Positions 5,440-38,052 of a stretch of 38,265 nt of DNA are shown here, piece after piece (position 1 is the first letter of the stretch; each line of letters starts with the position of its first letter). The notes below the pieces were generated by a model. That model saw only the letters and a list, made by a program, of their open reading frames with translations, ran no database searches and was not told the DNA's origin. The DNA is from a virus. Made by a program: the position numbers and the translations under genes. The stretch lies in the IMG/VR virus record IMGVR_UViG_3300025655_000105, positions 1-38,265 of that record. The stretch is one strand, 5' to 3'.

Positions 5440-5445
5440 GCGGAT

Positions 5446-7288: not shown

Positions 7289-8071
7289 GTGAGCATCCTC
7301 GATCAAAACATCGCACTCCGGAAATCACTTCAGGACCTCTGCAATGCCAGAGATCTCGCCATTGAAGAGTTCACCTTGGCCGGCGAGTGCCTGAAGCGTA
7401 GTGAGCAGGCCCTGAATGAGATCACCTCACACGCCTTCCCCTGGGATGCAAAACCACATCTCTCCCTCGAAAAGTTCATCAGAGAGATTGATCGCCGGAT
7501 GTGGCGTCATGCCTTCGATAAAACCGGCCTCATGCAGTACATGGATGGTAAGGCGCGGAAAGAGTTCGACAAGGAACTCGACCAGAACCCCCCGGCATTC
7601 ACCATGGAAAACTGCCGGGAGAACCTTCTCACCGCAGCCAGCAATGCAGATGAGTTCTTTGTACGTGGCCTGGTTGAGTTCTTTCTCGCGCTATCGAAGC
7701 GCCACAAGACCAACACCAACGAACCGTTCAAGGTTAGCCGGAAAGCCATTCTGGGCTATGCAGTCTCCAACTTTATTGGAATGACTGTGAACTACAGCAC
7801 CTATTCCAATGGCTCTGATCGAGTCAACGACATGGACCGCATATTCAAGACCCTGGACGGCAAGAAGCATCAACCAAGAGCACTTGAATCTGCCATCAAC
7901 ACGGCCTGGAAAGAATCCAACGTATTCGAAGACGAGTACTACCGGATCAAGGGTTTCAAGAACGGCAACATGCACATCGAGTTCAAGCGCGAAGACCTGC
8001 TCGAAAAAGCCAACAAGCTGATTTCTGATTACTACCAGGGTCAAGCATTGGCAACTGGCGCAGCTGCCTGA
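7289..8071 (+). CDS. DUF4942 protein
   Basis: A 260-residue product starting with GTG behind AGGGAGAGATCAA. The pattern matches DUF4942: an N-terminal coiled helix region, WRHAFDKTGLMQYMD near residue 75, FFVRGLVEFF, and a C-terminal FEDEYYRIKGFKNGNMHIEF block. DUF4942 proteins are common in phages and plasmids as stand-alone proteins or fused to methyltransferases; the function is not established. It is the first gene of the rightward early operon. Confidence 0.8.
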   Translation: MSILDQNIALRKSLQDLCNARDLAIEEFTLAGECLKRSEQALNEITSHAFPWDAKPHLSLEKFIREIDRRMWRHAFDKTGLMQYMDGKARKEFDKELDQNPPAFTMENCRENLLTAASNADEFFVRGLVEFFLALSKRHKTNTNEPFKVSRKAILGYAVSNFIGMTVNYSTYSNGSDRVNDMDRIFKTLDGKKHQPRALESAINTAWKESNVFEDEYYRIKGFKNGNMHIEFKREDLLEKANKLISDYYQGQALATGAAA

Positions 8072-8084
8072 ACGAGGACGCAAG

Positions 8085-8489
8085 ATGGACATCACCTTCC
8101 CCGATTTACACGAACTGCCCTTCAAGGCGCGAATCAATCTGTTCTGCTCAGTCGATGAGGCTGGCCATGAAGAGGTTGAACACCTGGCGGTCTATCCGAC
8201 GCTGGAGATCACCTTCGGCTATTTCCCGGGATCGATCGACATCACCGATCTGTATGTCCTGGGAGAGGCCCCGAACGGATTTCTGACCCGTCACATTCAC
8301 ATGGGTCTGAGGGCGAACGGTGGTATCGAGTGGCTGGAGGGAAAGATTCTGCCGGTGTTCGAGGCTGAGTTAGCGCGGCACGGAGAGCAGGCGAAGGCTG
8401 AGAACTACCCTCCTTCGAACACGCACATGACCGGCCACTTTCCAGGTGTTCGGTTTGACTACCGTACCCCTCAATTCCTAGCGGAGTGA
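8085..8489 (+). CDS. hypothetical early protein, 134 aa
   Basis: ATG at 8085 behind GAGGACGCAAG, 13 bases after the DUF4942 gene. Acidic and beta-rich, with LEITFGYFPGSIDITDLYV and a C-terminal GHFPGVRFDYRTPQF. No recognised family. It is co-transcribed with the recombination genes downstream. Confidence 0.65.
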   Translation: MDITFPDLHELPFKARINLFCSVDEAGHEEVEHLAVYPTLEITFGYFPGSIDITDLYVLGEAPNGFLTRHIHMGLRANGGIEWLEGKILPVFEAELARHGEQAKAENYPPSNTHMTGHFPGVRFDYRTPQFLAE

Positions 8490-8496
8490 ATCAGTC

Positions 8497-8595
8497 ATGA
8501 CCTACCACATGAAAGACGTTAAGGGCCTGGGCTCTCGACTGCGCCGCGTTTGGTATCAGATCAAGCGATTCTATCAAGAGGTGCCGGAGCTGTGA
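8497..8595 (+). CDS. small basic protein, 32 aa
   Basis: ATG at 8497; the product is MTYHMKDVKGLGSRLRRVW followed by YQIKRFYQEVPEL. Its stop TGA overlaps the GTG of the next gene (GTGA). The packed arrangement supports it, but the length is marginal. Function unknown. Confidence 0.45.
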   Translation: MTYHMKDVKGLGSRLRRVWYQIKRFYQEVPEL

Positions 8596-8780
8596 CCGAG
8601 CAGGAATACCAAGCAGCCATCCCGAAGTGTTGCCGGTGGAGAACCTTTCAGGAGCACTGGGACGCTCTCGGGCTGTGCTGGGGAATAACCCACGGCCTGA
8701 TTCAGAAACAAGGCGAAAGCTACTGCGATACCTGTGACGAGAACGTGAACAACGATCAGGAAAACCAATGCAACCATTGA
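8592..8780 (+). CDS. Cys-rich small protein, 62 aa
   Basis: The GTG start at 8592 overlaps the previous stop. Six Cys and several His are arranged as CCRW near residue 13, CW, CDTC and CNH at the very end, which suggests zinc binding. The last bases overlap the ATG of the next gene. Two Cys-rich products in a row precede the exonuclease gene. Confidence 0.6.
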   Translation: MTEQEYQAAIPKCCRWRTFQEHWDALGLCWGITHGLIQKQGESYCDTCDENVNNDQENQCNH

Positions 8781-8944
8781 CCCTATGCACGAACACCGAC
8801 TGCCCGATCAAAAGCGATTGCCTCCGTGCCCAGGCATGGCCGGAAGGCGAGAAGCAGAGCATGGGCTTTTTTCACCCGGTCTATCTGCCTGATGGTGCCG
8901 TGTGCGCCCACAAGAAACCAATGACAGAGACGAAGGAAAAGTAA
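8768..8944 (+). CDS. Cys-rich small protein, 58 aa
   Basis: ATG at 8768 overlaps the previous gene by 13 bases; the stop TAA at 8942-8944 shares a base with the next ATG (TAATG). The motif LCTNTDCPIKSDCLRA (about residues 6-21) and a later VCAHKK suggest a four-Cys zinc site. Similar tiny Cys-rich proteins sit next to YqaJ/RecT pairs in other phages, as far as I recall. Function unknown. Confidence 0.65.
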   Translation: MQPLTLCTNTDCPIKSDCLRAQAWPEGEKQSMGFFHPVYLPDGAVCAHKKPMTETKEK

Positions 8945-9849
8945 TGGCACTGACCGCAGAACAACTGCATGAACACAATACCGGTATCGGCGGCACTGAC
9001 GCTGCCGTTATCGCTGGATGTCACCCCTACAAGACTGAGCGAGAGCTCTACCACGAGAAGCGCGGAGAGATCGAACAGGAGGACATCTCAGACAAGGATG
9101 CTGTCTATTGGGGCAACGTCCTGGAAGACACTGTAGCCATTGAGTTTGCTCGTCGCACCGGTAACAAGGTGCACCGGGTAAACAAGACGCTCAAGCACCC
9201 GGACTACCCGTTCATCATCGGCCACATTGACCGAAATATCGCGAAGACTGACCGCGCCCTTGAGTGCAAAACAGCAAGCGCCTACATCAGCCGCGATGCT
9301 TGGGGGCCATCGGGTACCGACCAGGTTCCAGAGCACTACCTCATCCAGTGCCAGCACTACATGGGGCTGTTGCCGAAAGTCAAAGTCTTCGATCTGGCTG
9401 TGCTGATCGGCGGTAACGATTTCCGCATGTACGAGATCCCCAGAGACGACAACCTGATCAGGTCATTGGTTGACCTGGAAGTCGCCTTCTGGGACCGCGT
9501 AGGTGCTGCCAATGCTCCGGAGTTCGACTACTCACACGAGAGCACTATCGAACTCATTCAACGGCTCTACCCGGGCACAGACGGACAAGTCATCGAACTG
9601 CCTGCCGGGGCTCTGCATTGGCACGAGGTACTTACGAAAGCCAAAGAGGTTGCCAAGACCTACGAGAGCGTCATCGAGGGTGCAAAAGCACATCTTCAGG
9701 AATTGATGGGGCAGTCCGCGGTTGGCTTGATCCCGGGCATGGACGGCGCAGGCTACACCCGCAAGTTGACGAAGCGGAAAAGCTTCACCGTAGAGGCTAC
9801 CGAATACATCGATTTCAGATTTACCAAAAAACCGAAAGGGGTTAAGTAA
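8944..9849 (+). CDS. YqaJ-family recombination exonuclease
   Basis: A 301-residue product. The PD-(D/E)XK nuclease core of the YqaJ/lambda-exonuclease family is visible: GIGGTDAAVIAG near residue 13, YWGNVLEDTVAIEFA (Glu), HIDRNI with the Asp, and ALECKTA with the ExK (about residues 100-103). A helical tail follows. The start ATG is coupled to the previous stop (TAATG). In these pairs the exonuclease degrades one strand to give ssDNA for the annealase encoded next, which here overlaps by one base. Confidence 0.85.
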   Translation: MALTAEQLHEHNTGIGGTDAAVIAGCHPYKTERELYHEKRGEIEQEDISDKDAVYWGNVLEDTVAIEFARRTGNKVHRVNKTLKHPDYPFIIGHIDRNIAKTDRALECKTASAYISRDAWGPSGTDQVPEHYLIQCQHYMGLLPKVKVFDLAVLIGGNDFRMYEIPRDDNLIRSLVDLEVAFWDRVGAANAPEFDYSHESTIELIQRLYPGTDGQVIELPAGALHWHEVLTKAKEVAKTYESVIEGAKAHLQELMGQSAVGLIPGMDGAGYTRKLTKRKSFTVEATEYIDFRFTKKPKGVK

Positions 9850-10795: not shown

Positions 10796-10981
10796 ATGCT
10801 GATCTTGACTCGAAGAGTTGGAGAAGAACTGGTCATCGGCGATGACGTAACCGTAGCCGTCCTTGGAACCAAAGGTAATCAGGTACGGATTGGCGTCAAT
10901 GCACCAGATGACGTGTCAGTTCATCGCCAAGAAGTCTACGAACGTATCCAACGTGAAAAAGCCGCAGGAGGCAAACAGTGA
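10796..10981 (+). CDS. csrA: CsrA-type translational regulator
   Basis: A 61-residue product that matches CsrA over its full length: [33 protein letters not shown] and EVYERI, with the RNA-contact residues Leu4/Arg6/Arg7 and the VxVHR motif in place. Host CsrA binds GGA motifs near ribosome sites. Phage copies are uncommon but known. Here it is embedded in the early operon between RecT and a small gene with which it overlaps (GTGA), so it is part of the phage, not a flank. Confidence 0.9.
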
Positions 10982-11520: not shown

Positions 11521-11814
11521 ATGTCAGACACCGAAATCAAGAAGGCAGAGAAGCGCGGCTATTCGAGGGGCTACGCGGCTGCTGAAAGACGCGCAGATAA
11601 AGAATTATCCGACCTTGGAAAGAAGACCGAGCTGCTTGAGCAGATAGCCTCTAAGCGACAGGAGCGTATTTATATGCAGTGCTTAGGCCTCGCACTCAAG
11701 CACTGCAGCAACTGGTCGATTGGTGACAAGCCTATCAACAACGCTGAAGGCTATTGCCGGCTTGCGAAGATATTCACCGAAAACTCCATTTCATCAATGG
11801 ACAGCACCATATGA
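11521..11814 (+). CDS. hypothetical coiled-coil protein, 97 aa
   Basis: MSDTEIKKAEKRGYSRGYAAA begins a charged helical N-terminus with heptad-like spacing (KELSDLGKKTELLEQIA). The C-terminus has CLGLALKHCSNW. The stop TGA overlaps the next ATG (ATGA). No family is recognised. Confidence 0.6.
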   Translation: MSDTEIKKAEKRGYSRGYAAAERRADKELSDLGKKTELLEQIASKRQERIYMQCLGLALKHCSNWSIGDKPINNAEGYCRLAKIFTENSISSMDSTI

Positions 11815-12077
11815 GCAATGAAAACAAAGACCGCATCAACTACAAAACGAAGGCGGGCAAAAAAATAATCGAGTCCGTCACCATCGACGGCAAGACACAA
11901 CCACTACGTGACTGGGAACGGCTGTCAGGTGTGAGCTCAGGAACTATCCGAGCTCGACTCTATAAGGGCATTACACCGAGAGAGGCCGTATTCGGAAAAG
12001 CTCAAGGCACAAAGAACATTATGGGGAGCGGGATTGATACCCACGTAATGCGGATAGCGAATGGGGCTTGGAGATAA
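11811..12077 (+). CDS. putative HTH DNA-binding protein, 88 aa
   Basis: ATG at 11811 overlaps the previous stop. The middle, GKTQPLRDWERLSGVSSGTI followed by RARLYKGITPREAV, resembles the homeodomain-like HTH found in many small phage proteins. The stop codon TAA is inside the first core box of the attC at 12072-12140 (AGATAAC), as in the cassette genes, so this gene or block may itself be the first cassette of the array. Confidence 0.6.
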   Translation: MSNENKDRINYKTKAGKKIIESVTIDGKTQPLRDWERLSGVSSGTIRARLYKGITPREAVFGKAQGTKNIMGSGIDTHVMRIANGAWR

Positions 12078-12140
12078 CGCTTACTTAAAGGGTGACTGGC
12101 TGCGCAGCAGACAGGCATCCATTTGAAGTGCTTGTTATCC
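12072..12140 (+). other. attC-like recombination site before the RtcB cassette
   Basis: R'' box AGATAAC (12072-12078), L'' ACTTAAA, central imperfect palindrome with GCTGCGCAGC, L' TTTGAAGT, R' box GTTATCC (12134-12140). This is the order and size (69 bp) of an integron attC. The R' box of this site pairs with the end of the RtcB cassette rather than exactly with its own R'', as expected for a cassette junction. Confidence 0.75.
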
Positions 12141-12166
12141 CAAGTACTGATACAGGAAAAGAGACA

Positions 12167-13381
12167 ATGAAACAGACAAAGATTTTTGCAGAAGTATTAG
12201 AAGATACCGCAATGGATCAATTTAATAGCGCGATGGAACAGCCATTTACTGTTTCAGGTGCACTGATGCCAGATGCGCACGCGGGCTACTCATTACCTAT
12301 TGGCGCTGTTGTAGCAACCGACGGTATGGTTTTGCCTGCCTGGGTTGGTTATGACATCGGCTGCGGAATGTGCGCCCTTCGCTTGGATGGTATCGACGCT
12401 GACGAGGTAGAGGCGAACAGCAAAGATGTATTTGACCTGATCTATAAATATATCCCTGTTGGGTTTAACGTGAACGAGCAAGGCAAAGAATACGGCCTGG
12501 ACGGGTTAACCGATAAAGGTAAAGAGATTGCCAAGACCAAAAAACATGACCGCGCTCTAGGTTCGCTCGGCGGTGGCAACCACTTTATTGAGGTTGGACG
12601 TGACGAGGAAGGCAACACATGGGTAGTAATTCACTCAGGTAGCCGTGGTGTTGGACATGGCATTGCTGCGCACTACATGACTGTTGCATCTAGCGACCCT
12701 ACGAAGCTGGAGCAGGAATTCGACGAAACCCACCAGGAGCTACTGAAGCACAACCCAGGCGAATACGATAGCCATAAGGAAAAGTGGGTGACCAAGAAGA
12801 TGGGGCGCTTGCGCCCTAAAGAAGGCCACTATGGTTTTGACGTTAACTCTCAAAACGGAAAGGACTACATTCAAGACCTTGCATGGTGCTTGGACTTCGC
12901 ACTAGCCAACCGTAAAGAAATGATGGAGCGCGTAATTCGAGCAATTACCGAGGCGCTTGATATTTCCTGTTATGAACTGGATTTTTCCGAACTCATTAAC
13001 CGTAACCATAACCACGCAGTAGAACGTGATGGGCTATGGATTCACCGCAAAGGCGCAACCCATGCGGAAGAGGGAATGATGGGTGTTATTCCAGGCAACA
13101 TGCGCGACGGCTCATTCATTGTTCAAGGCAAGGGCAATCCTGATTCTTTGTACTCAAGTTCTCATGGTGCGGGCCGTGTTCTGGGCCGCAAAGAAGCAAA
13201 GCGCAAACTGAATATGAATGACTTCACTGAAACAATGGAAGGCATTCAGGCTTTAGTGAAAGAAGACACCCTGGATGAATCGCCATTTGCATATAAAAAC
13301 ATCTTCGATGTGATGCGACTGCAACAAGATTTAGTTGAGGTTGTGGCTCATGTGCGCCCAATGGTGAACATAAAGGGATAA
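12167..13381 (+). CDS. rtcB: RtcB RNA ligase in an integron-like cassette
   Basis: A 404-residue RtcB. Motifs run in order: PDAHAGYSLPIG (35-46), GYDIGCGM with the metal ligands Asp63/Cys66, GGGNHF (His139), HSGSRG (His156), a long insert, NRNHNHAVE (about 279-287), HRKGATHAEEG, and SSHGAGR with the GMP-accepting His333. Known RtcBs join 2',3'-cyclic-phosphate or 3'-phosphate ends to 5'-OH ends using GTP and Mn2+. All key residues are present, so it should be active. ATG 12167 is chosen over an upstream frame-open start lying in attC, with AGGAA in front. The cassette boxes GTTATCCC (12134) and GGGATAAC (13375-13382) are exact complements, with the stop TAA in the last box. Confidence 0.93.
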   Translation: MKQTKIFAEVLEDTAMDQFNSAMEQPFTVSGALMPDAHAGYSLPIGAVVATDGMVLPAWVGYDIGCGMCALRLDGIDADEVEANSKDVFDLIYKYIPVGFNVNEQGKEYGLDGLTDKGKEIAKTKKHDRALGSLGGGNHFIEVGRDEEGNTWVVIHSGSRGVGHGIAAHYMTVASSDPTKLEQEFDETHQELLKHNPGEYDSHKEKWVTKKMGRLRPKEGHYGFDVNSQNGKDYIQDLAWCLDFALANRKEMMERVIRAITEALDISCYELDFSELINRNHNHAVERDGLWIHRKGATHAEEGMMGVIPGNMRDGSFIVQGKGNPDSLYSSSHGAGRVLGRKEAKRKLNMNDFTETMEGIQALVKEDTLDESPFAYKNIFDVMRLQQDLVEVVAHVRPMVNIKG

Positions 13382-13417
13382 CGACTGCATAACCCGCGCT
13401 GCGAACTGGAGATAGAT

Positions 13418-13729
13418 ATGGACACCGAAAGCACCAAACCCGAAACGGCCGCCGAGGACGACGCGCAGCGTCGGCCCGTTGATGCACTTGTTAGTTTTAC
13501 TCACGCCTACATGGGCCTGTGCATCCGCAATGACGAAAAGCACCAAGTAGTAAATGTGCATTCAGTGCATGACGGCCAGGTGTACTACGGCAGGTATTCC
13601 GATTTGCTGGAGGACGACATTACCGATGGGTTTATCGGTGCCTATCGATCCCCGGAAAATCAATTCAACGATATGATTGGCCGAGCCGTACTGGACGGGG
13701 CAGCGGTATATACCCTGCTGGAAAACTAA
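13418..13729 (+). CDS. hypothetical cassette protein, 103 aa
   Basis: ATG at 13418 behind TGGAGATAGAT, nearly the leader used by the cassette gene at 14185. Acidic product with VDALVSFTHAYMGLCIRND and DGQVYYGRYSDLLEDD; it may be a small beta-rich fold. The stop TAA lies in an AACTAAC core box. Its upstream boundary with the RtcB cassette has no normal R' box (GCATAAC instead), so that junction may be rearranged. No family is recognised. Confidence 0.65.
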   Translation: MDTESTKPETAAEDDAQRRPVDALVSFTHAYMGLCIRNDEKHQVVNVHSVHDGQVYYGRYSDLLEDDITDGFIGAYRSPENQFNDMIGRAVLDGAAVYTLLEN

Positions 13730-13757
13730 CGATTGAATTGAACAGCATGCGTTACTT
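13725..13757 (+). other. very short attC-like hairpin
   Basis: AACTAACG (about 13724-13731) and CGTTACTT (13750-13757) pair at 7 of 8 positions with only 18 bases between. It has the AAC and GTT triplets of attC core boxes and sits between two cassette genes, but it lacks room for a normal L''/L' stem. It may be a deleted attC. Confidence 0.5.
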
Positions 13758-13827
13758 AACTGAAAAAGAGGACAAGGCAGCATGGGCAGCACTAAAGGCA
13801 AGCACAAAGAAAATAGCAGGAGGACGC

Positions 13828-14070
13828 ATGTCTGATTCTAATGACTTGTTACCTTGCCCTTTCTGTGGAAGCAAGGTTTGGATGATTGGGTGGGGATGGA
13901 TTTCAATTACATGCCATAAGTGCGACATAACTTTTGAGGACAGGAACGGCGTGCCTGGAAATAAAGAGCACGAAAGGCGCTTAAGTGAGCGCTGGAATAA
14001 AAGATGCCCAATGACGGCAAAACTTGGAGCTACGAAAACATCACCGCCGATTGTGATTGAAAATGACTAG
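13828..14070 (+). CDS. Lar-like restriction-alleviation zinc ribbon, 80 aa
   Basis: Start set by AGGAGG 3 bases before ATG 13828, though the frame is open upstream to the cassette edge. The signature LLPCPFCGSKVWM, then ITCHKCDITF and a SERWNKR end follow the Lar-family scheme (CPFCG ... CxxC ... WNxR). Rac-prophage Lar relieves type I restriction by modifying host EcoKI activity; most relatives are uncharacterised zinc ribbons, so anti-restriction is only a hint. The cassette boxes GTTACTT (13751) and AAGGTAAC (14074-14081) nearly complement each other. Confidence 0.7.
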   Translation: MSDSNDLLPCPFCGSKVWMIGWGWISITCHKCDITFEDRNGVPGNKEHERRLSERWNKRCPMTAKLGATKTSPPIVIEND

Positions 14071-14073
14071 GGC

Positions 14074-14163
14074 AAGGTAACGATTGGGTAAGGGGCAGCC
14101 AGCGAAGCTGGTTGTCCCGCGCAGGGGCGAAGCCCCGTAGAGAACTTGACCCGCTTGTTATGA
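14074..14163 (+). other. attC-like site, 90 bp, after the Lar-like gene
   Basis: R'' AAGGTAAC (14074-14081); L'' GGGT-AAG and L' CTTGACCC pair with one extra-helical base, a known attC feature; R' GTTATGA (14157-14163). Two further hairpins lie inside (CAGCCAGC-GAA-GCTGG and GGGGC-GAA-GCCCC). Strong attC candidate. Confidence 0.8.
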
Positions 14164-14184
14164 GGCGGGTTCACGGAGATAGAT

Positions 14185-14412
14185 ATGACTACTGAATACA
14201 AATTTTGGCTCGTAAAAAACACAAGTGGCGGCGCTGCACAAAAGATGCACGGCACCATTGAAGAGGCACGCGAAGAGGCAAAGCGCTTGGCAGCCCAAAA
14301 TAACGGCCACACATTCGTGGTTGCTGAGGCAGTGGAAGCGTACCGGCAGAAACCTGTAGAGATCGAGCGTTTTCCGGTGAAGCACAGGCCTGAAGAAGCG
14401 CCCGCCTCATAA
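14185..14412 (+). CDS. hypothetical cassette protein, 75 aa
   Basis: ATG at 14185 behind TTCACGGAGATAGAT, the leader form shared with other cassettes. The product MTTEYKFWLVKNTSGGAAQK has a two-stranded start and a long helix (EEAREEAKRLAAQNNG), then TFVVAEAVEAY. The cassette ends GTTATGAGGCGGG (14157-14169) and CCCGCCTCATAAC (14401-14413) are exact 13-base complements and the stop TAA lies in the second. Function unknown. Confidence 0.75.
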   Translation: MTTEYKFWLVKNTSGGAAQKMHGTIEEAREEAKRLAAQNNGHTFVVAEAVEAYRQKPVEIERFPVKHRPEEAPAS

Positions 14413-14429
14413 CAGATATTGGGAAGCAT

Positions 14430-14447
14430 GAATGCCGCATAACACTA
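14430..14447 (+). repeat. 18-bp repeat at cassette edge, copy 2
   Basis: GAATGCCGCATAACACTA, identical to the minus-strand copy at 461-478. Here it forms part of a hairpin with GGCATT (14451-14456) that would cover the AGGGG ahead of the integron-integrase start. Confidence 0.8.
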
Positions 14448-14461
14448 AGGGGCATTGAGAG

Positions 14462-15448
14462 ATGAAACGAACAGAAGTTATTGAAAAAGTGAATGAAGTA
14501 GTGAAAAGACGCCATTTGTCACCGAAGACAAAAGCGGCTTACCTGACACGCATTCTGAAATTCATTGACTTCTGCCGTGCAAATGCTGGACTTTCTACCG
14601 AAGAGAAGATCACGGCCTTTCTTTCCAAGATGGCAGTTAAGGGAAAGGTATCTGCCAACACCCAGAACCAGGCCTTGAACGCAATTGTCTTTCTCTACCG
14701 TGATGTACTCGAACAGCCTCTCGGGGACTTCTCAAACTTCGTGAGAGCACAGAAGCCGAAGACCCTCCCGGTGGTAATGTCTGAACGCGAGTGCATGCTC
14801 GTTCTCTCTCATGTACACGGGATACATCATCTGATGGCCTCACTTCTCTACGGATGTGGACTCAGACTGAATGAAGCTGTTTCCCTCAGAATCAAAGACA
14901 TCGATTTCGACAGAGACATGATCTTCGTCAGACATGGTAAGGGGGCCAAGGACAGAGCCGTCATGCTCCCCAGATCGGTCAAGGACAAACTCCGAGAGCA
15001 GGTCGAAGACGCAAGGCGGATCCACACCAAGGACCTTGCTGCCGGCAATGGCTCAACCTACCTGCCGAATGCGCTGGTCCGAAAATTCCCCAATGCAGCA
15101 ACAGAGTTTGCGTGGCAGTGGGTATTCCCGGCCAGGAAGACGCACTACAACGAAGAGCTGCAGGAGACGAAGCGTTGGCACATTCACCATACGGCACTCC
15201 AAAAGGCCGTGAGGCAAGCTGTCAGGCTGTCCGGGATAGACAAGAAGGCCACCTGCCACACCTTCAGGCATTCGTTCTGTACGCATCTCCTGGAGAGCGG
15301 TAAGGGCCTGAAAGAGGTTCAGGAACTCATGGGCCACAGTCACGTCACCACGACGATGATCTACACCCACGTCATGCGCAAGCCGTCAGAGATTCAGAGT
15401 CCGTTGGATGCGGCAAGTAACGTGGTACCACTGGTGGCGAACGGCTGA
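14462..15448 (+). CDS. intI: integron integrase (IntI family)
   Basis: A 328-residue tyrosine recombinase. The catalytic set is complete: Arg135 ([10 protein letters not shown]), the beta-hairpin Lys (GKGAKD, about 160-163), His266-x-x-Arg269 (CHTFRHSF), His292 (MGHSH) and Tyr301 (TTMIYTHV). The IntI-specific insert that binds folded attC is present at about 198-223 ([13 protein letters not shown] then FAWQWVFPA); XerC/D and phage integrases lack it. The SPLD motif near the end is also IntI-like. It reads in the same direction as the cassettes and lies downstream of them, unlike the divergent classical layout. It is followed two bases later by the DUF4224-like/HNH gene, within the phage early operon. 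Confidence 0.94.
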
Positions 15449-15449: not shown

Positions 15450-15929
15450 ATGAACAACTTCGTAACCTTCGACGAACTCAAGGAGATCACTGGATACAAG
15501 ACATCCAGTGCGGTGAAAGCCCGCCTAAACCTTTTCGGCATCAAATACCTTACGGGCAAAAAAGGCATTCCAGTTACCACCCGCCTAGCTATTGAGGTTG
15601 CCATAGACAATGTTGATCTTCTGCATCGAGATATCACAAAAGCATCGGTCCTAACCAAAAGCATGCGATACAGAGCTGGAAGAAATGCAGCTCTTGCAAT
15701 CAAGCGAGCAAATAAAAGTAACCGTTTGCCTGCTTGGGCAAATCAGAAGCAGATGCTGAACGTGTACATTGATGCAGTTATCAAGCAAGAAACATTCGGA
15801 CAACCGCAGCACGTTGACCACATTATCCCCCTACACGGCAAATTAGTCAGTGGCCTGCATGTTCCAGAGAACCTCCGGGTAATCGGTGCTGCAGAAAATA
15901 TCAGCAAGAGCAATGCGTATGAACTCTAA
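15450..15929 (+). CDS. DUF4224-like domain fused to an HNH nuclease
   Basis: A 159-residue product starting [17 protein letters not shown], 1 base after intI. Residues 1-40 match DUF4224, a short HTH-like protein usually encoded alone next to phage integrases. The C-terminal part has [22 protein letters not shown], an HNH pattern (DHIIPL ... N) with the His/Asn pair, seen in homing-type and phage HNH nucleases. The middle is helical and basic ([17 protein letters not shown]). This looks like a domain fusion or an insertion of an HNH domain. Confidence 0.75.
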
Positions 15930-16287
15930 TCGCGCACAAGTCCAGCCGAGACTCATCAGAAACAAGGATGCACCGGCCTACCTCGGCATGGATCAAAATC
16001 GGTTCAAGGCTGAAGTTCGCCCGTATCTTATTGAAATTCCTATAGGTGTGCAGGGTATCGCATTTGACAGGATTGACCTCGACGCCTGGGCGGACCAATA
16101 TAAAGCCCGCTGCGGACGTCCTGCCAAAAAGAAAATGGAGGTAAAACCATGGCAAGACGACCGATGCCAGGGCTCACGAAAAGGGGCCAAATCTGGCACA
16201 TCGACAAGTGCACCCCGCATGCCCCAGAAGGGAGGCTTCGAGAAAGCACTGGAGTTGGTGAACTCGATGAAGCCGAACGGTACTTAG
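15913..16287 (+). CDS. excisionase-like protein
   Basis: A 124-residue product. The first about 75 residues ([19 protein letters not shown] and [16 protein letters not shown]) have the AlpA/MerR-like winged helix of phage Xis proteins, ending in a basic GRPAKKK tail. The frame continues to 16287, 139 bases into the integrase gene, and its C-terminal part (KALELVNSM...) looks like a conserved tail, so the overlap is dual coding. ATG 15919 is an alternative start. Xis would direct Int toward excision. Confidence 0.7.
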
Positions 16288-17342
16288 TTCACCGTCTTGA
16301 AGAACTGCGTAAGGCTGCTGTCTATGGCATCAGACCAAAACGGCGATTCGAAGAGGCGGCCACAAAGTACCTGCTCGAAAATACTCACAAAGCAAGCATC
16401 CGCGATGACGGACGACACCTGAAACAGATGATGCCATATATCGGAGAACTGTATCTGCATGAGGTGTACGACGACACACTCCAACCCTTCGTTCAATATC
16501 GGTTGGGTAATGGAATCAAGCCGAAGTCGATCAATCTTGCGTTGAGTATTGTACGGCGGATACTGAATCTCGCTGCACGGTCATGGAGAGAAAACGGCCT
16601 CACCTGGTTGGAACAGGCTCCGCTAATCACCATGCTACCGCTCAAGGGAACTCAGGCCGAACCCTATCCGCTGTCCTGGGACGAGCAAAAGAAGCTTCTG
16701 AAAGAGTCACCCGATCACTTGGCTGAGATGGCCTTATACAAGGTCAACACGGGAAGCCGGGAACAGGAGGTCTGTCAGCTTTCATGGGAATGGGAGCAGG
16801 AGATCCCTGAGATAGGCCATAGCGTGTTTGTGGTACCGGCCTGGGTCAACGAGGAAGACGGACGAGTCAAGAACAGAGAGGACCGCTTGATCGTCTTGAA
16901 CACCGTTGCCCGGTCAGTGATCGAGGCCAAACGTGCTTCACGACCACAGGCCCACCTGGAAGGGTGCAAGTCACTGATGAAAGGAAAGGAGAAAGGAAGG
17001 TGCAATTGTGCCTATGGAGTTGTCTTCACCTATCGAGGGTATCAGGTAGGAAAGATGAATAACTCCGGATGGAAGACCGCATGGAGAGCAGCGGGGCTGC
17101 CTGTCTCGAAGAAAGTCCTCAAGGGAGTGCATAACCTCAAGCACACCTTTGGACGACGCCTGAGAGCCGCAGGAGTCCAGCTGGAGACCAGAAAGGTACT
17201 TCTCGGGCACACGACAGGGGACATTACGACCCATTATTCAGCGCCGGAGATCGAAGAATTGGTCAATGCCGCTGAGATGGTGTGTGGGGCTGATCCCCAC
17301 AATTTCCCCACATTGACCTTGATAAAGAAAAAAGCCGGTTAG
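16149..17342 (+). CDS. int: phage tyrosine integrase
   Basis: A 397-residue site-specific recombinase. The catalytic residues are Arg204 (TGSREQEV), His328 with the next conserved position Lys331 (HNLKHTFGRRL), His354 (LLGHTTGD) and Tyr363 (TTHYSA). The usual box II Arg is Lys, which I recall in a subgroup of phage integrases. A C...C insert (CKSLMKGKEKGRCNC, about 273-287) may hold zinc. The N-terminus (residues 1-60) is the arm-binding part. It lies next to the attP core and its arm-type repeats, and it starts inside the Xis gene. It would integrate at a tRNA-Arg. Confidence 0.92.
   Translation: MARRPMPGLTKRGQIWHIDKCTPHAPEGRLRESTGVGELDEAERYLVHRLEELRKAAVYGIRPKRRFEEAATKYLLENTHKASIRDDGRHLKQMMPYIGELYLHEVYDDTLQPFVQYRLGNGIKPKSINLALSIVRRILNLAARSWRENGLTWLEQAPLITMLPLKGTQAEPYPLSWDEQKKLLKESPDHLAEMALYKVNTGSREQEVCQLSWEWEQEIPEIGHSVFVVPAWVNEEDGRVKNREDRLIVLNTVARSVIEAKRASRPQAHLEGCKSLMKGKEKGRCNCAYGVVFTYRGYQVGKMNNSGWKTAWRAAGLPVSKKVLKGVHNLKHTFGRRLRAAGVQLETRKVLLGHTTGDITTHYSAPEIEELVNAAEMVCGADPHNFPTLTLIKKKAG
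17294..17312 (+). promoter_or_regulatory. left attP arm-type site pair
   Basis: TCCCCACAATTTCCCCACA: two TCCCCACA boxes 11 bases apart within the 3' end of int. It resembles the right-arm pair at 17522-17540, with the tRNA core between. It is the likely binding site of the integrase N-terminal domain. Confidence 0.65.
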
Positions 17343-17363: not shown

Positions 17364-17381
17364 GTATTTCTTAGCAAAATA

Positions 17382-17428
17382 TGGCGCGCCCGGCACGATT
17401 CGAACGTGCGACCGCCTGGTTCGTAGCC
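17382..17428 (-). other. attP core: 3' half of tRNA-Arg(ACG)
   Basis: Read on the minus strand it runs from the anticodon loop CTACGAA through the T-arm (GTTCGAATC) to the 3' CCA, matching the 3' half of a tRNA-Arg with anticodon ACG. Upstream of the anticodon stem the pairing fails, so it is not a complete tRNA. This is the classic phage attP design: integration restores the host tRNA gene. The crossover should lie in or near the anticodon loop. Confidence 0.85.
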
Positions 17429-17521
17429 ATACGGCTATGTCAGTAAACGTTTAATATCAGTAAGTTACAGGACGTCCGCAGCCCCCACAGTCCATAACTG
17501 CTCATGACGAATCTGGACCCA

Positions 17522-30530: not shown

Positions 30531-32627
30531 TTATGCGCCTGCGTTGCGAACAGCGCCCGCGTAACCGACACCGGAAACACCGAAGTCAAGGCGGGCCTTG
30601 TACTGGGTGCCGTCAACGCTCCAGCCGTCCTGCATGTCGAGGAAGGGTTCCTGCTCACCGTCAAGGAACGAGACCTCAAGCACGGGGGCTTCATCAGGGC
30701 TGGCAAATACAAACCAGGGGTTGCCCGTCAGACGAGGTGTGCCGACCAGATCAGAGAAGTAGTTCTGATAGGGGTTAGGCACGTTGTCGTTCTTGCTCTT
30801 GGCGGGTGCGTCGGGGTCGTTGGTGGAGGCGTTGAGAACACGCGCAGTCAACTCAAGCGATTTTGGTCCAAGCCAGATGGCTGGCGTCAGGTCCAGATAG
30901 TCGTTGCCGTTGATGTCCTTCTGTCCGGCCATGGCCAGCACACAGGATTCAACCGTCGCAACGGATGGGCCGCCTGCCGTTGCGGCAATGTTGCCGTGGT
31001 CTGCATGGAACAGGCTCTTGCCGTCGCTCAGGGTTGGACCCATGCCGCTGTTGAGCGCCAAGGTGCTGTAGACGGTTGATTCGATGGTGCGCCGTGCGGC
31101 ACGACCCAGGGCGGACGCGAGTCCAACAAAAGCGCCCAGGTCATCGTTGATGATGGCCTGACGGCTGATGTTGATCAGGTTGCCCTTGGTGCCAATGGAA
31201 ACGGTCTCTTTGCTACCGTCGCCGATCTGCTTGTTCTGGAACTCACCCAGCTCAGTGAGATCATCCAGATTACCCAAGCTGCCGATCATGTAGCGGTTGT
31301 GAGCGCGGAAGTCGGATACAGACCCGACAGCACAAAACCGACTCCAGGTATCGGCGGCAGTGCGGTAGCCGGAGAGCAGCGCCTTGTGCATCGCGTTTTC
31401 CAGCAGCACGGGGAAATCACTGGTGCTCTGCGTAAAGGCGGCGGCCACAACCTCCATTTTGGTTTTGCCTCTGGTGTCATACCCGCCACTGGCCAGGCAC
31501 TCACGAGCGAGGTCCATCAGCGACATTCCGCGGTAAGGGTTGCCAGCCATCTGAATGGCCTTGCCCTCTTCGCTCTTGATCTTGGCGCGAGCCAGGATGA
31601 TGTTGCCTGCGGCTTCAATGCGCTTGTCACGCTCATCGGTAACCACATCAACACGAACACCACCGGCGGCAGCCAGGGGCTCGTGCTGTTTACCGATGAC
31701 ATCCAGGATTTTTTCGCGTGCTGCGTCAACGGTGATTTCAGGATCAGCCAGGATCTGATCCTTCAACTCACTCATGCCATTAACCTGCATGTGCGGGGTG
31801 ATGATGGCGAGTACTTCGGTATTGCGCGCTTTGATAGCCTCGACCTGTCTGGCATTGGCAGCGGCTTCGATTTCGGTGACGTTCACCGGCTTTTCTTCGG
31901 CGGTCGGTTCAGCGCCCGCCTTGGGGGTCTTCTTCTCAGGCATTGTTTTATCCTTTCGAGAGGTTGGAAGAGTAGCGGCGGGCATTGCCGCCAGGGTTGG
32001 AGATTTGAAATTACGGAAATCAATCCCGTCTGCGCAGGCTGCGATATCAACGGAATCGGTGGTGTCGTCGATGAGTCCGAGATCAAGGGCTTCTGATGCG
32101 GTGAAATAGTGGTCATCGCCATCTTTCAGCCAGCCCTCAATGTCGGCCTTGTCTGGACCGCCGTCACGGATATAGGCGTTGGTCATGGCGTCTGCGTATT
32201 TATCGAGGATGTCGGCCTGCTTGCGCATCTGCTGCGCATTGCCTGACGCCCAAGACATAGGCGCATGAATCATCAAAAGGCCGTTGTCTGCCATGATGAC
32301 AGTCTCTCCGGCCATAGCGATGAGAGACGCAGCGGAGTAGGCCACAGCATCAATCTCAACAGTTACAGCGCCGCTATGTCTGCGCAGCGCGTTGAAAATG
32401 GCAATGCCGTCTGCAACAGATCCGCCAACCGAGTTGATACGAACTGTGAGATCCTTGCCATCTACATCCTTCAGCTCTGCAATCAGCTGCTTTGCGGTAA
32501 CGGATTCGTCATCCCAGTAGGATGGGCCGATGTTGCCGTAGATCAGAAGTTCTGCGCTGTCGTCGCCTGCGGCTTTGACTTCGTACCACGGCTTGGGTGT
32601 TGATTTGTCTTTCTTCGGCATGGTCAT
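30531..32627 (-). CDS. prohead protease-major capsid protein fusion
   Basis: A 698-residue product. Residues about 1-200 are a ClpP-type prohead protease: VGGSVADGIAIFNAL, AVAYSAASLIAMAG with nucleophile Ser98, MIHAP with His121. A charged linker (EKKTPKAGAEPTAEEKPVNV) leads to a Mu-type capsid half (TQSTSDFPVLLENAMHKALL, SDFRAHNRYMIGSLG, GSKETVSIGTKGN), ending near YAGAVRNAGA. The protease must cut itself off the capsid subunit. Fusions of this kind are known in other phages. The ATG overlaps the portal stop (ATGA). Confidence 0.85.
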   Translation of the reverse strand: MTMPKKDKSTPKPWYEVKAAGDDSAELLIYGNIGPSYWDDESVTAKQLIAELKDVDGKDLTVRINSVGGSVADGIAIFNALRRHSGAVTVEIDAVAYSAASLIAMAGETVIMADNGLLMIHAPMSWASGNAQQMRKQADILDKYADAMTNAYIRDGGPDKADIEGWLKDGDDHYFTASEALDLGLIDDTTDSVDIAACADGIDFRNFKSPTLAAMPAATLPTSRKDKTMPEKKTPKAGAEPTAEEKPVNVTEIEAAANARQVEAIKARNTEVLAIITPHMQVNGMSELKDQILADPEITVDAAREKILDVIGKQHEPLAAAGGVRVDVVTDERDKRIEAAGNIILARAKIKSEEGKAIQMAGNPYRGMSLMDLARECLASGGYDTRGKTKMEVVAAAFTQSTSDFPVLLENAMHKALLSGYRTAADTWSRFCAVGSVSDFRAHNRYMIGSLGNLDDLTELGEFQNKQIGDGSKETVSIGTKGNLINISRQAIINDDLGAFVGLASALGRAARRTIESTVYSTLALNSGMGPTLSDGKSLFHADHGNIAATAGGPSVATVESCVLAMAGQKDINGNDYLDLTPAIWLGPKSLELTARVLNASTNDPDAPAKSKNDNVPNPYQNYFSDLVGTPRLTGNPWFVFASPDEAPVLEVSFLDGEQEPFLDMQDGWSVDGTQYKARLDFGVSGVGYAGAVRNAGA

Positions 32628-34099
32628 TCTTTCTCGCTGGTGATTAATTCCCAGCCGCGAGCTTGCGCGGTTGGTTTTGAGATGGTGTCTTCACTGTCGA
32701 AAGCGTCTTCCTTCATCTGCTTCCAGCGGCGCTGCTGGTCTGCGACATCACGCGGATTCATGCCACGCCGACGTATGATTTCGATGCCGCTGGCATGGCC
32801 GTTTTCTTCGAGATTGCCCCAGGCAACAGACTCTTTGACTGGATCAATCCACGGCATTTGAGGTGGCATGTAGAACGCATCACCAATGGTCAGTGGGTCT
32901 ACGTCTGACGGGATGATCAGATCACCAGAGAGCAATGCCATTTCGAGGAATTTGTGATAGGTCGGCCTGACGAATTGGCCGATAAATTCAGAAGCCAGCA
33001 CACCATACGCGCCATAACCCTCAACAAGCTCTTGCCGCTGTGCTGAATAGGTTCCGTTGTAGTCTTTTGAGAGGCTTGAGTAGGTCAGGTAACTGGATGA
33101 AGCCCAGGCCCGCAGCTGCCCGTTGCGGTAGGCTTCCAGGTTTACGTTCGGGCGCGAGGTGTCGATGGTGCCAATCTCTTCACCGGCCACCAAATCATCG
33201 AAAACCATGCCCGGGCTAAACCGTAAATCACGCGCTTCCGGTTCGCCGTCGCCATCTAGATCGGTGTCATACAGATCCGAGCTTCCTTTTTTGATGTATG
33301 CCGCCATGCTTGCCGCAACCTTGGCGGCTATGCGTTCGCTCTCTTCGTAGTCTTTGATGTCGTCAATCCGCAGCATTGAAGCGGCGAATATTGATACGCC
33401 TCTGGTCTGCCCAATACGGTCAATCAGTTTGACGTGCAGCATGCGGTCGGCACTGACGCGCTTTGTCTCTGCCGCAACTGAGTAGAGCCTGAAGTCTCCG
33501 GGGTGCTGCTTGTAGATATGGTAGGCAACCGGCTTACCCCACCCATTGAGTTCAACCCCCTGGACGATGCGAGGGTCACCTGCCTTGTTGAGGCCAAGCG
33601 GAAGCTGGTCTGCCTCGATCAGTTCGAGTGAAAATGGAACGCGGGTTCCGTGGTCAAGGCTTGGGAGTGTGCCGCTGATGGTCTGCGCCAGGCCTTCACC
33701 GTCTCTAAGCCAAGTGCGCCCCATCAACCGTTGAGCTGCCGGCCAGTCATGCTGGTGCGTGACTTCAGGACGCAATGACCAATCCATATAGGACGCATGA
33801 ATTCTCTTTGCAAAGTCATCGTGGATGGATCCATCCGGCCTGCGCGGCTGTGGCTCTACCTGAATGCCGTTTGGTCCAATGACGTTCTGCACCAGGGTGT
33901 TGAGCGCCCCTTTAGCCAGGTCGTGATTTTGGTCGAGGTGGCGGGCCTGTTCTCTGATTGAAGTCCCGGCGCGTTGTACGGCGGTATCGGCAGAACCAGT
34001 CTCTCGGCGCTGTTTCTGGTAGCCGGTGCGCTTTCCGGCCTCGTAGTACATCTTGACTGGTACTCCGCCTCGCCAATGCACAACACGCCGTCTATTCAT
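32624..34099 (-). CDS. portal protein (lambda type)
   Basis: A 491-residue product. Motifs: DLAKGALNTLVQNVIG, RDGEGLAQTISG, LIEADQLP, RGVSIFAASMLR, YSSLSKDYNGTYSAQRQEL and PPQMPWIDPVKE fit the lambda gpB portal family. ATG 34099 overlaps the gpW gene stop (ATGAATAG); an upstream TTG is an alternative. The portal forms the packaging ring at one capsid vertex. Confidence 0.85.
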   Translation of the reverse strand: MNRRRVVHWRGGVPVKMYYEAGKRTGYQKQRRETGSADTAVQRAGTSIREQARHLDQNHDLAKGALNTLVQNVIGPNGIQVEPQPRRPDGSIHDDFAKRIHASYMDWSLRPEVTHQHDWPAAQRLMGRTWLRDGEGLAQTISGTLPSLDHGTRVPFSLELIEADQLPLGLNKAGDPRIVQGVELNGWGKPVAYHIYKQHPGDFRLYSVAAETKRVSADRMLHVKLIDRIGQTRGVSIFAASMLRIDDIKDYEESERIAAKVAASMAAYIKKGSSDLYDTDLDGDGEPEARDLRFSPGMVFDDLVAGEEIGTIDTSRPNVNLEAYRNGQLRAWASSSYLTYSSLSKDYNGTYSAQRQELVEGYGAYGVLASEFIGQFVRPTYHKFLEMALLSGDLIIPSDVDPLTIGDAFYMPPQMPWIDPVKESVAWGNLEENGHASGIEIIRRRGMNPRDVADQQRRWKQMKEDAFDSEDTISKPTAQARGWELITSEKE

Positions 34100-34295
34100 C
34101 GGCAAATCTCGCAATACGGTGACGGGGTGAAAGTCGGGGCTTGGCGGCGTACAACTCCGCCTCGATTTGATTTTGTATACGGATTAGCTCGTCCAGCGAA
34201 CGGTAGGTGATCTGGCGATCACCAAAACGCACAGACAATTCGCCAGCGGCTATTGCTGATTTAATACTGTCGAGGTCTTGTTGAGTGTACGCCAT
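34092..34295 (-). CDS. gpW-like head-tail joining protein
   Basis: A 67-residue product MAYTQQDLDSIKSAIAAG, VRFGDRQITYRSLDELI, a clear gpW signature. ATG at 34295 is set by the pattern MAYTQxDL. In lambda gpW stabilises packaged heads before tail joining. It overlaps the portal start and follows the cassette block. Confidence 0.85.
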   Translation of the reverse strand: MAYTQQDLDSIKSAIAAGELSVRFGDRQITYRSLDELIRIQNQIEAELYAAKPRLSPRHRIARFADE

Positions 34296-35168: not shown

Positions 35169-35516
35169 CTACAAATTCCACTCACTCGAACCAAAGCCGG
35201 TATGCCTGCGGGTCTGCTTTGCAAGATAATCAGAAATCACACGGTCAACAGTTCGTCTGTCTACGTCGTGGTGCATGGCTATTTCCCCCCTCGGGGCTTT
35301 GCCCTTCCACATTGCAATAATACTCCTGTTGCGCTCTCTCCGCCGCTCCTTGCTGATCTGACGGATATAGTGACGATCTCCACCAAACCTGCCCCGAACA
35401 TCCTCCTCGACGTTCTGAGCGATAGAGCGCGCCAATTCTGCATCTATCCCGGCGTCGGATAATGCACTGTTCAAGCAGGTACAAACGAACTCGGCGAGAT
35501 CGTCGTACTCTGTCAT
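35169..35516 (-). CDS. Mor/C-family transcription activator
   Basis: A 115-residue product. VRGRFGGDRHYIRQIS, RRRERNRSIIAMW, RGEIAMHHDVDRRTVDRVISDYLAKQ matches the Mor family of phage Mu (GGxxxYIP-like turn, RNxxI, HTH at the end). In Mu, Mor activates the middle promoter. Here it lies inside the late operon between terminase and the cassettes, which suggests it could activate a promoter further along. The start overlaps terminase by 4 bases. Confidence 0.75.
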   Translation of the reverse strand: MTEYDDLAEFVCTCLNSALSDAGIDAELARSIAQNVEEDVRGRFGGDRHYIRQISKERRRERNRSIIAMWKGKAPRGEIAMHHDVDRRTVDRVISDYLAKQTRRHTGFGSSEWNL

Positions 35517-37573
35517 AGGCGACTGCTCCAGTCATCCGAACCAAAGCCCCGCTTGTTCATCTGCTTCTTAACTTGCTTTTTCGTGGTGGATTCTGCGCCT
35601 GATACGTGAGAGTTCCTATCCCACACCGCCGCCCACTTCGGAGGCGTTTTCCAATCTATTTTCTCGACGCCAAGATAAAGGTTCAGTGCCTTGCCGTAGT
35701 AAAGCAAATCCCCTGTCTCGTTTCTCTCGCTGCCAATGTTTTTCCAGCCGGTTGATGTTCTTGTCTCGGCAACGATTTCAGCGAAGTACTTCTCTTCCAG
35801 CCATGATGGAAGGTGAACAAAACCTGGACCCTCTTCTTTGCGCGTCAGATCGTTGTTGAGCGCGTCCTTGAGTTCGTTCGTGTTCAGAATCAACATCGGC
35901 ACATCTCCACGCGCCCCGGAGTGCCGGTCTTTGCGCTTTGATGAGTCTGGGTATGTTTCTCTCACTCGTGGGATTTTAGCGTTTGGTCTGTCACCCTCGC
36001 CCTTTATCAGCCGTACATTTCGGTTCTTGCCGCTGCGCCTGAGAGAGCGCCACCAGTTCAGAGCCCTGGTGGTAACGCCCTTTTTACCTCCGGAGTCAAC
36101 GCCAACGAAATGAACCGCCATTCTGCGGCCTGAATCATCACCCAGGGGGTACTCTTTGCCGATCAGTGCATTGAGTACAGTCCAGTCTTCCTGGTGGCCT
36201 GGTGGGTCGAGCGGCTCTTTCTCGCCTGCTGCAGTCACTCTATCTGACCAGTGAAGCGCGAACCGATCAACAATCCAGGATTCCTGTTCGATACCGTAGC
36301 CAGTGACCAGCACCTCGAATCGATTTCCCTGAACGTCGACTTTCGCCAACAGATAACGAACGCCCTCCGGAACGGTCCCCCTGGTCCACTCAATAGCGCG
36401 GCTGATCAGCTCGTCTGCCGTCCTGGTGCTCTTCCGACTGATTGGCAGATACGGTGACCCCTGGTCAACGTTAACGGTGGTTTTCAGCGCCTTCTCTGAA
36501 CCGGTGCGCTCATACTCAGCCTTAGCCTGGAGGTATTTCAGGACAATGGATTCCCATGTTTGAAAACGCGCGTTTGGTCCGTGCAACCAGAATGAGGCAA
36601 TGGAAGAGCCGTATGCCTCGCCGGTGATTATTCCGCCCTTGCTTATTTTCAGGCCGTCTCTTACCCATGCGCCGTTCGCGTCCATCTCCGTTTTGTGCTC
36701 AGGCCCAATCTGGCATCCGCAGGATGGGCACACAATCTGAACCTGTGCGGCGGCTTCCTGGATGTTGTCTATCTCCGGATACCAGAGGCGGTCGAACGTA
36801 GGGATGAAATACTCATCACATTCAATGCACGGCCAGTAACGGCGGCGACGGTCTCCGCGGTTGAAGAGCGACATTATCCCGGGAGCCGGTGGCCCTTCGT
36901 GTGATGTCGTTGGGGTCCACTTCGGGTTAATGATCTCCTTCTTCGGTGAACTCTCCGCCATGCACATTCCGGCGGACATGAAGGTCTGAACACGCTTCAG
37001 CGCCAAAGCAAATGGTTCGCCTTCCCCGTCTACGTCCTCTGGCATAGAGTCGTAATCTGACAGCACCACATAGCGCATATCACGCTGGGCCATTCGGGAA
37101 GACGTCGGCCACAGCAGATCAACCAGCATCCCGTTTCTGAATGTTTTGCTGAATAGGTTGTCATCGTGGGAGCGTGGCGAGATCATCGCGCGTATCTCAT
37201 CACTCGCCTTGTTCAGCCTGTTGAGACGGCGTTTCGAGTAGTCCTTTGCGTTGCCCTCTACCGGGAAATAGAGACCCATATCACCCGGATCACACATCAC
37301 CGCATAGCCATACCACCCATCAACCAGGCTCTGTGTCTTCGATGAACGGGCAGGCCCAACAAACACAACCGCCTCATATTCTCTGGCGGCGAGGGTGTCC
37401 ATCGGCTCAACCATGTAAGGAGTCAGATCCGGATCGTAGGGGCCTTGGTACCCACCAGGGGCGTTAACCGTCACATACCTGGACGCGGCCTCACTGACCC
37501 GCATCCGGACAGGGGCCTTCACTGCCTTGACGGCATCACTTCTGATTTCGGCATAGGTTCCGTATGAGATCAT
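35513..37573 (-). CDS. terminase large subunit (lambda gpA type)
   Basis: A 686-residue product. Walker A VGPARSSKTQ (about 72-81), Walker B-like YVVLSDYDSM, zinc-finger-like CIECDEYF and CPSCGC pair, and nuclease-domain FVGVDSGGKKGVTTRALNWW. These fit the GpA-like large terminase that works with Nu1-type small subunits and cuts cos ends. ATG 37573 overlaps the TerS stop (TGATG). It implies cos-type packaging; the cos site itself is not seen with certainty. Confidence 0.9.
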   Translation of the reverse strand: MISYGTYAEIRSDAVKAVKAPVRMRVSEAASRYVTVNAPGGYQGPYDPDLTPYMVEPMDTLAAREYEAVVFVGPARSSKTQSLVDGWYGYAVMCDPGDMGLYFPVEGNAKDYSKRRLNRLNKASDEIRAMISPRSHDDNLFSKTFRNGMLVDLLWPTSSRMAQRDMRYVVLSDYDSMPEDVDGEGEPFALALKRVQTFMSAGMCMAESSPKKEIINPKWTPTTSHEGPPAPGIMSLFNRGDRRRRYWPCIECDEYFIPTFDRLWYPEIDNIQEAAAQVQIVCPSCGCQIGPEHKTEMDANGAWVRDGLKISKGGIITGEAYGSSIASFWLHGPNARFQTWESIVLKYLQAKAEYERTGSEKALKTTVNVDQGSPYLPISRKSTRTADELISRAIEWTRGTVPEGVRYLLAKVDVQGNRFEVLVTGYGIEQESWIVDRFALHWSDRVTAAGEKEPLDPPGHQEDWTVLNALIGKEYPLGDDSGRRMAVHFVGVDSGGKKGVTTRALNWWRSLRRSGKNRNVRLIKGEGDRPNAKIPRVRETYPDSSKRKDRHSGARGDVPMLILNTNELKDALNNDLTRKEEGPGFVHLPSWLEEKYFAEIVAETRTSTGWKNIGSERNETGDLLYYGKALNLYLGVEKIDWKTPPKWAAVWDRNSHVSGAESTTKKQVKKQMNKRGFGSDDWSSRL

Positions 37574-38052
37574 CAAGCCGCCACCACCTTCGAGGCCTCA
37601 GACAGCTTCGAGTAGGCCTCGTCTCTAAATGCGTCAATCGATGCAATTACCCGTGCGGTCGCATGCGGCTGAATGCCGGCATCTCTTTCGAGCACATCCG
37701 GAAGCGTCTCCAAAAGAGAGACCATCGACTTCACCAGTTCAGCCGTCCCGCGCTCGACCTCTTCTGCGGGGATAAGCTGCCTCCTGGAAACCATCAGCTC
37801 ATCCCTGGCCTGTTCTGCGCGATAGTATTTGAGACGCTCGTTTGGCGTCATTTTGTCTACAGGTAGCTGCTCTTCAGGCTCCTTTTCCTGGGCTCTCAAA
37901 TAGCGAATATAGCCCTGAACAGATCCAACCAATGGATATTTCCCCCTGGAGGATTTAGGTATATATCCAAGTTTCGCTAACTGCTGTATCCGGCGCGGGG
38001 ATATCTCCAGCAGTTTCGAAATCACCTCTGTAGATAAAAGTTCAGAAGACAT
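37573..38052 (-). CDS. terminase small subunit (Nu1-like)
   Basis: A 159-residue product. ELLSTEVISKLLEISPRRIQQLAKLGYIPKSSRGKYPL is a clear MerR-like/Nu1 winged helix (shown here in parts of one domain), followed by a helix-rich dimer region (ERLKYYRAEQARDELMVSRRQLI). It recognises cos-type sites and loads the large subunit. It is the first gene of the late operon. Confidence 0.88.
   Translation of the reverse strand: MSSELLSTEVISKLLEISPRRIQQLAKLGYIPKSSRGKYPLVGSVQGYIRYLRAQEKEPEEQLPVDKMTPNERLKYYRAEQARDELMVSRRQLIPAEEVERGTAELVKSMVSLLETLPDVLERDAGIQPHATARVIASIDAFRDEAYSKLSEASKVVAA

Follow-up and report, generated by a model that had tools for sequence, protein, structure and literature searches.

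A complete integron is very probably built into the genome of a temperate tailed phage, where its integrase would recombine reversed, phage-transcribed cassettes that carry counter-defence genes. The phage is known from IMG/VR record IMGVR_UViG_3300025655_000105, and the whole virus record, 38,265 nucleotides in length, is the window analysed here (Table 1). A sequence-only reading of this DNA had proposed a full-length tyrosine recombinase in which no catalytic residue is missing and the IntI-only insert is present, placed inside the phage early operon ahead of xis/int, and a possible role of the phage as a self-contained unit of cassette capture. The protein and its placement were both borne out by our analysis, and the capture unit is supported as a prediction, given intI, an attI core, four delimited cassettes and related phages that differ by whole cassettes. 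The boundaries of the array, the reversed orientation of its genes and its recurrence among phages were no part of that reading.

Table 1. Phage and integron features of the window.
Feature	Position	Strand	Evidence
ORF of 88 aa whose end lies in the R' box of the distal attC	11811..12077	+	phrog_3377 HNH endonuclease, E 6e-5
Cassette 4	12078..13381	-	attC 12072-12140; 8-nt junction match 12134/13379; circular-form z -2.6; top attC scan match
Cassette 4 gene, RtcB RNA ligase, 404 aa	12167..13381	+	PF01139, E 4e-89; phrog_1075, E 2e-114
Cassette 3	13382..13729	-	attC 13376-13496; 9-nt junction match 13490/13727; circular-form z -3.0; attC scan match
Cassette 3 gene, 103 aa	13418..13729	+	no Pfam/PHROG match
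Cassette 2	13730..14080	-	attC about 13724-13854; 13-nt junction match 13848/14078; circular-form z -3.4
Cassette 2 gene, Lar-like restriction alleviation protein, 80 aa	13828..14070	+	PF14354, E 1e-7; phrog_599, E 2e-11
Cassette 1, nearest attI	14081..14412	-	attC about 14081-14163 (loose scan match 14075-14163); 13-nt junction match 14157/14410; circular-form attC z -4.9
Cassette 1 gene, weakly DUF2188-like, 75 aa	14185..14412	+	phrog_17352, E 1e-5; PF09954, 20.3 bits (under cutoff 22)
attI (predicted)	14410..14455	-	core TAA/C at 14410-14413; cassette 1 R'' matches boundary 14410 over 13 nt
intI, integron integrase, intact	14462..15448	+	328 aa, ATG start; TIGR02249, 2a3v, tree, insert
Excisionase-like N-terminus and HNH-like C-terminus, one ORF	15450..15929	+	phrog_1266 excisionase, E 4e-11; phrog_1035 endonuclease VII, E 1e-6; PF13986
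Phage's own tyrosine integrase	16149..17342	+	phrog_1, E 1.5e-30
attP core, 3' part of tRNA-Arg(ACG)	17380..17429	-	88-91% match to three copies in G014/L110
ClpP-like protease/major capsid fusion and portal	30531..34114	-	NF045540, 623 bits; phrog_21, E 1e-98
Terminase large and small subunits	35513..38052	-	phrog_15, E 2e-211; phrog_141, E 3e-24

The phage and its integron integrase

Both terminase subunits, portal, major capsid protein, integrase and att site are present in the window, as is typical of a temperate tailed phage. With the att core lying inside the record, excised or replicating DNA was probably the source of the assembly. G014 (locus L110), which holds the nearest IntI relative, is a prophage in its integrated state, perhaps accompanied by a second element; copies of the att core lie at 78-125, 5373-5419 and 42443-42492, one of them in a full tRNA-Arg(acg). 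The contig of L106 is 100% identical to the right end of the window and extends 2774 bp beyond it (L106 1-2774), with genes that look ParB- and methyltransferase-like by eye, which shows the window record to be incomplete. Both L105 and L107 start at window position 38261, and the L107 contig (G053) is 100% identical to the window wherever the two were compared (38261-20534 and 18000-16154). Its edge at 16154 falls just past the intI and xis/HNH genes and could reflect an assembly break caused by array variation.

The intI product was confirmed at the sequence level as a full-length integron integrase and not a Xer or phage integrase. It scores 383 bits (E 9e-115) against TIGR02249, the NCBIfam model of integron integrases with a curated cutoff of 265, and 139 and 133 bits against the XerC and XerD models, far under their own cutoffs. 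In the alignment, the catalytic set (R135, K160, H266, R269, H292 and Y301) is invariant, and the IntI-specific insert aligns with those of IntI1, VchIntIA-like and Shewanella IntI and is missing in XerC and XerD. VchIntIA (2a3v) is the best solved structure by sequence (E 6e-74; runner-up Xer, E 6e-27) and also by fold of the predicted model (mean pLDDT 82.5), with E 3e-25 for 2a3v and 4e-11 for Xer as runner-up. The closest proteins are viral (55% identity in L110, 53% in L120), the top bacterial one being about 49% identical.

Grouping with XerC/D or phage integrases had been named beforehand as an outcome that would speak against an IntI. In our tree, whose bacterial rows are a non-random sample (the 80 most similar to the window), the window IntI groups with IntI proteins, and XerC and XerD fall outside, on long outgroup branches that make the root placement uncertain. 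It belongs to a 14-row all-viral clade (SH-aLRT 95) nested in a larger group (support 91), whose 43 rows comprise, besides the window, 41 viral rows and a single bacterial one. A second viral IntI clade consists of 16 rows (support 98). The gene itself sits inside the early operon, flanked on one side by a YqaJ exonuclease and a phage-encoded CsrA-like regulator (10796-10981, just upstream of the array) and on the other by the excisionase-like/HNH gene and the phage tyrosine integrase. In the gene directly after intI, the excisionase-like and HNH-like domains are apparently fused.

A delimited array with reversed genes

Four cassettes spanning 12078-14412 lie directly upstream of intI and hold, from the distal end, RtcB, an ORF without assignment, Lar and a DUF2188-like ORF. 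An inserted cassette keeps its own R' half at its start, so that its R'' is expected to match that start and not the adjacent R'. Such matches extend over 8, 9, 13 and 13 nt in the window, where just three other pairs reach at least 8 nt among all comparable ones, and they define the boundaries of the four cassettes. When the circles were rebuilt in silico, the bottom strands of all four folded into attC hairpins (z -2.6 to -4.9), including those of cassettes 1 and 2, which fold poorly in the integrated form. Our attC finder is home-made and of limited sensitivity, and was verified on class 1, Vibrio and Shewanella integrons; an initial scan with a four-pair inner stem gave nothing useful, and a loosened and later a trained version were applied. 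The loose scan found three window sites with the R''-L''-L'-R' layout and an extrahelical C, namely the attCs of cassettes 4, 3 and 1, and the stricter trained scan retained the first two; the attC of cassette 2 was missed by both and is placed by its junction match and fold. The sites were assigned to the minus strand because the unpaired C sits in the L'' arm, and a plus orientation was ruled out by the same extrahelical C. An Rfam search gave no match. Scans, junction matches and circular-form folds thus confirm the window's attC sites, to which the sequence-only reading had alluded. At the left end, the 88-aa ORF represents either an array anchor or the remnant of a lost cassette; the junction test in the window found no R'' partner for its boundary that would mark a fifth cassette.

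The boundary closest to intI is the predicted attI core, 50 bp ahead of the intI start. Beside it lies the motif CAGATATT..GC..GGC, and similar sequences occur at the same place in L002, L110-L114, L117 and L120. Of 40 viral arrays, 33 gave a resolved boundary on the attI side, where the motifs are clade-specific, and the median gap between attI and intI is 74 nt in viral against 162 nt in bacterial loci. No LexA box was found upstream of the window intI, and a promoter scan for the array gave matches no more frequent than chance, with no promoter identified.

The polarity of attC relative to intI is canonical, whereas all four cassette genes are on the plus strand, opposite to the attC sites and co-directional with the early operon, intI and the phage integrase. 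The window genes are accordingly not co-directional with attC and would not be read from Pc; co-direction with attC is typical of bacterial integrons but does not define recombination, and the reversal is a variant feature. The TAA stop lies within the TAA/C core in three of the four cassettes, that of cassette 1 being the core itself, and the Lar gene stops 10 bp earlier. Among terminase-bearing IMG/VR phage loci with intI and detectable attC, a count that leaves out L135, 22 of 24 are majority-reversed, one is canonical and one is a tie; bacterial loci comprise 23 canonical, 2 reversed and 6 ties. Fisher's test on orientation in all viral against bacterial loci gives p 1e-9, a figure to be read with the IntI tree in mind, since about 5 changes of the viral label are needed there and the counts overstate independence. 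Reversal is present in both viral IntI clades, and a phylogeny-controlled test had too few independent pairs for significance. The reversed coding strand is confirmed in viral arrays by strand-specific homology: plus-strand ORFs match 20 Pfam families, minus-strand ORFs have matches in 1 of 90 cases, and antisense ORFs of bacterial arrays in 0 of 56. ORF length taken by itself points the same way, though less strongly.

Phage relatives and cassette turnover

The sequence-only reading had suggested looking for related phages with intI, and scans of IMG/VR recovered first 23 and then 80 loci of IntI relatives, mostly on metagenome contigs, with a recurrent phage arrangement. Hallmark genes among 50 records comprise phrog_15 terminase (22/50), phrog_2 terminase (10/50) and portal (22/50). 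The intI gene lies directly upstream of TerL in L002, L005, L014, L020 and L021 (with one ORF between in L016), of portal in L006, of primase in L004 and L010, and of phage integrase genes in L022, L152 and L174. Junction matches of at least 8 nt are found in 71% of viral and 65% of bacterial arrays, compared with 2-6% of controls (5% in the comparison for viral arrays). In L020 and L021, where attC arrays lie upstream of TerL, intI is reduced to a C-terminal remnant, as in decayed integrons with cassettes retained. L135 is a viral contig ending in a canonical array of 15 attCs, and probably represents a host chromosomal integron that was captured or lies in the flank.

Cassette turnover is most visible between the phage contigs L161 and L162, the flanks of which are 99.2-99.9% identical while whole inserted cassettes differ exactly at the cleavage points. 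Shared cassettes are bounded exactly by these points (299/299 bp at 100% and 425/425 bp at 99.5%), and further cassettes, 616 and 757 bp long, lie between them in L162. L165 is identical to L161 over 16.9 kb and belongs to a 42.7-kb record in which genes for TerL, tail, primase and integrase show its phage identity. The unassigned gene of window cassette 3 is 34% identical to an ORF in the array of these three loci. Pairs of viral IntIs have dN/dS of 0.04-0.30, indicating purifying selection. Together, the L161/L162 differences and the dN/dS values suggest that recombination operates in phages of this kind, as distinct from the window's own enzyme.

Annotated phage cassettes mostly encode DNA methyltransferases, plus Mom, Lar and RtcB; the plus-strand families named by Pfam are N6/N4 and C5 DNA methylases, Dam, D12, Mom, Lar, RtcB, PAPS reductase, DHH and others. 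Judging from the family names, most of the named families fit restriction evasion, many cassettes being without annotation, and RtcB may counter tRNA-cutting defences. For Lar, viral contigs yielded weak relatives. No attC sites flank the RtcB relatives at 76% and 67% identity; in L188, the 76% identical RtcB has no detectable flanking attC and is followed by an apparent csrA, a gene that the window also has upstream, which hints that phage genes may become cassettes. A further RtcB homologue (L189 7885-9058) was observed in a 45-kb viral contig with four minus-strand attC sites about 3 kb away.

In the mechanism that we propose, IntI would act during infection or lysogeny, recombining attI with the attC bottom strand in its folded form, and would add, drop and reorder cassettes like bacterial IntIs. 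Because the cassette genes are reversed, phage transcription would enter at the distal end of the array, in place of a Pc promoter at attI, and with the stop codon often in the TAA/C core, a gene would end at the cut. The cassettes would mainly serve as interchangeable counter-defence genes (for DNA methylation, Mom, Lar and perhaps tRNA repair by RtcB), and site-specific recombination would let the phage alter its anti-restriction kit. One lineage of phage IntIs may have retained the reversed-cassette arrangement.

Alternative readings and relation to known integrons

A fragment of a host chromosomal integron could have been caught by chance at prophage excision and be carried as passive cargo, as in the Vibrio anguillarum phages described in an earlier survey (PMC9892861), and L135 fits such an event, given its 15 attCs, canonical genes and position at a contig end. 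We consider this origin very unlikely for the window, where the integron is internal, between the early genes and xis/int and not at an att boundary, its nearest intI genes are viral within the 14-row all-viral clade, and its cassette genes are reversed, unlike those of bacterial integrons; dN/dS is low, and other phages show the same design next to TerL, primase and integrase. That the integron is now a relic, with an array of ordinary phage genes and an IntI that no longer recombines, is an unlikely reading. Activity of the window IntI is a prediction from its sequence, no LexA box precedes its gene, and the arrays of L020 and L021 retain only the C-terminal remnant; against this, the window IntI is intact with complete catalytic residues, viral IntIs are under purifying selection, L161 and L162 show recent cassette differences located at cleavage points, and the R''/start matches of the window still extend over 8-13 nt.

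It is barely credible that IntI was repurposed as a second phage integrase or a resolvase acting on attP or genome dimers, with the attC-like repeats incidental. The gene does lie beside or near phage integrase genes in the window, L174, L152, L165 and L022, but the phage already encodes a tyrosine integrase of its own and has a tRNA-Arg att site, its attC sites show correct polarity and junction matches, the attC-binding insert of IntI is conserved, and many intI-bearing phages have the gene beside TerL or primase. We therefore favour a complete phage integron, and we lean, with less assurance, towards the broader view that tailed phages keep an integron lineage of their own, with reversed cassettes, a shortened attI-intI gap, counter-defence cartridges and a cassette pool largely separate from that of bacteria.

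Sedentary chromosomal integrons (Vibrio, Thiohalobacter L031 and Betaproteobacteria L092) share with the phage ones the IntI family, attC structure, attC-intI polarity and junction signature, but have cassette genes that follow the direction of attC and point away from intI, and their attI-intI gap is about 160 nt against 74. VchIntIA/IntI4 (2a3v) resembles the window IntI in fold, catalytic residues, insert and about 41% identity, the former being a host chromosomal enzyme and the latter a member of a viral clade. In inverted-integrase integrons of the Treponema type, intI is flipped, the cassette genes stay canonical and the attC sites lie downstream of intI. Genes and intI thus read one way there as in the window, where, unlike in that type, it is the genes within the cassettes that are flipped. 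A published phage record, Virus Rctr41k (KX853513; L175), looks like an inverted-integrase integron, having an intI annotated as xerD, attC-like sites downstream on the plus strand and all genes running one way (4680-9434).

Integrons, devices for gene collection best known in bacteria, have already been published from phages. Among 10,705 genomes, three complete integrons were found in phages together with one In0, all of them host-type or class 1 (Vibrio, Shewanella and P1) (Qi, 2023; PMC9892861). Integrons and CALINs are described there, the phage attCs were shown to be recombined by IntI1, and MTase cassettes are proposed to help phages escape restriction (PMC9892861). Those integrons resemble the window and the other viral loci in having intI, attI, attC and cassettes, among them MTase cassettes, in phage genomes; the available part of the text describes no phage-specific IntI lineage, reversed cassettes or conserved placement beside TerL, primase or int. 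That article alone reports phage integrons in the literature we searched, which excluded preprints and most subscription papers. The same literature gave no report of a phage IntI lineage, of reversed cassettes, of the short attI-intI gap or of intI placed within phage operons.

Phages thus carry more than stray integron pieces, and many hold a whole integron as a standing part of the genome, embedded in early, packaging or lysogeny operons. The reversed cassettes suggest that the transcription of the carrier, and not the recombination system, sets the orientation of cassette genes. If active, these integrons would allow phages to swap anti-restriction genes through site-specific recombination, mirroring the bacterial integrons in which anti-phage defences are stored, and movement of cassettes between phage and bacterial arrays would connect the two gene pools.
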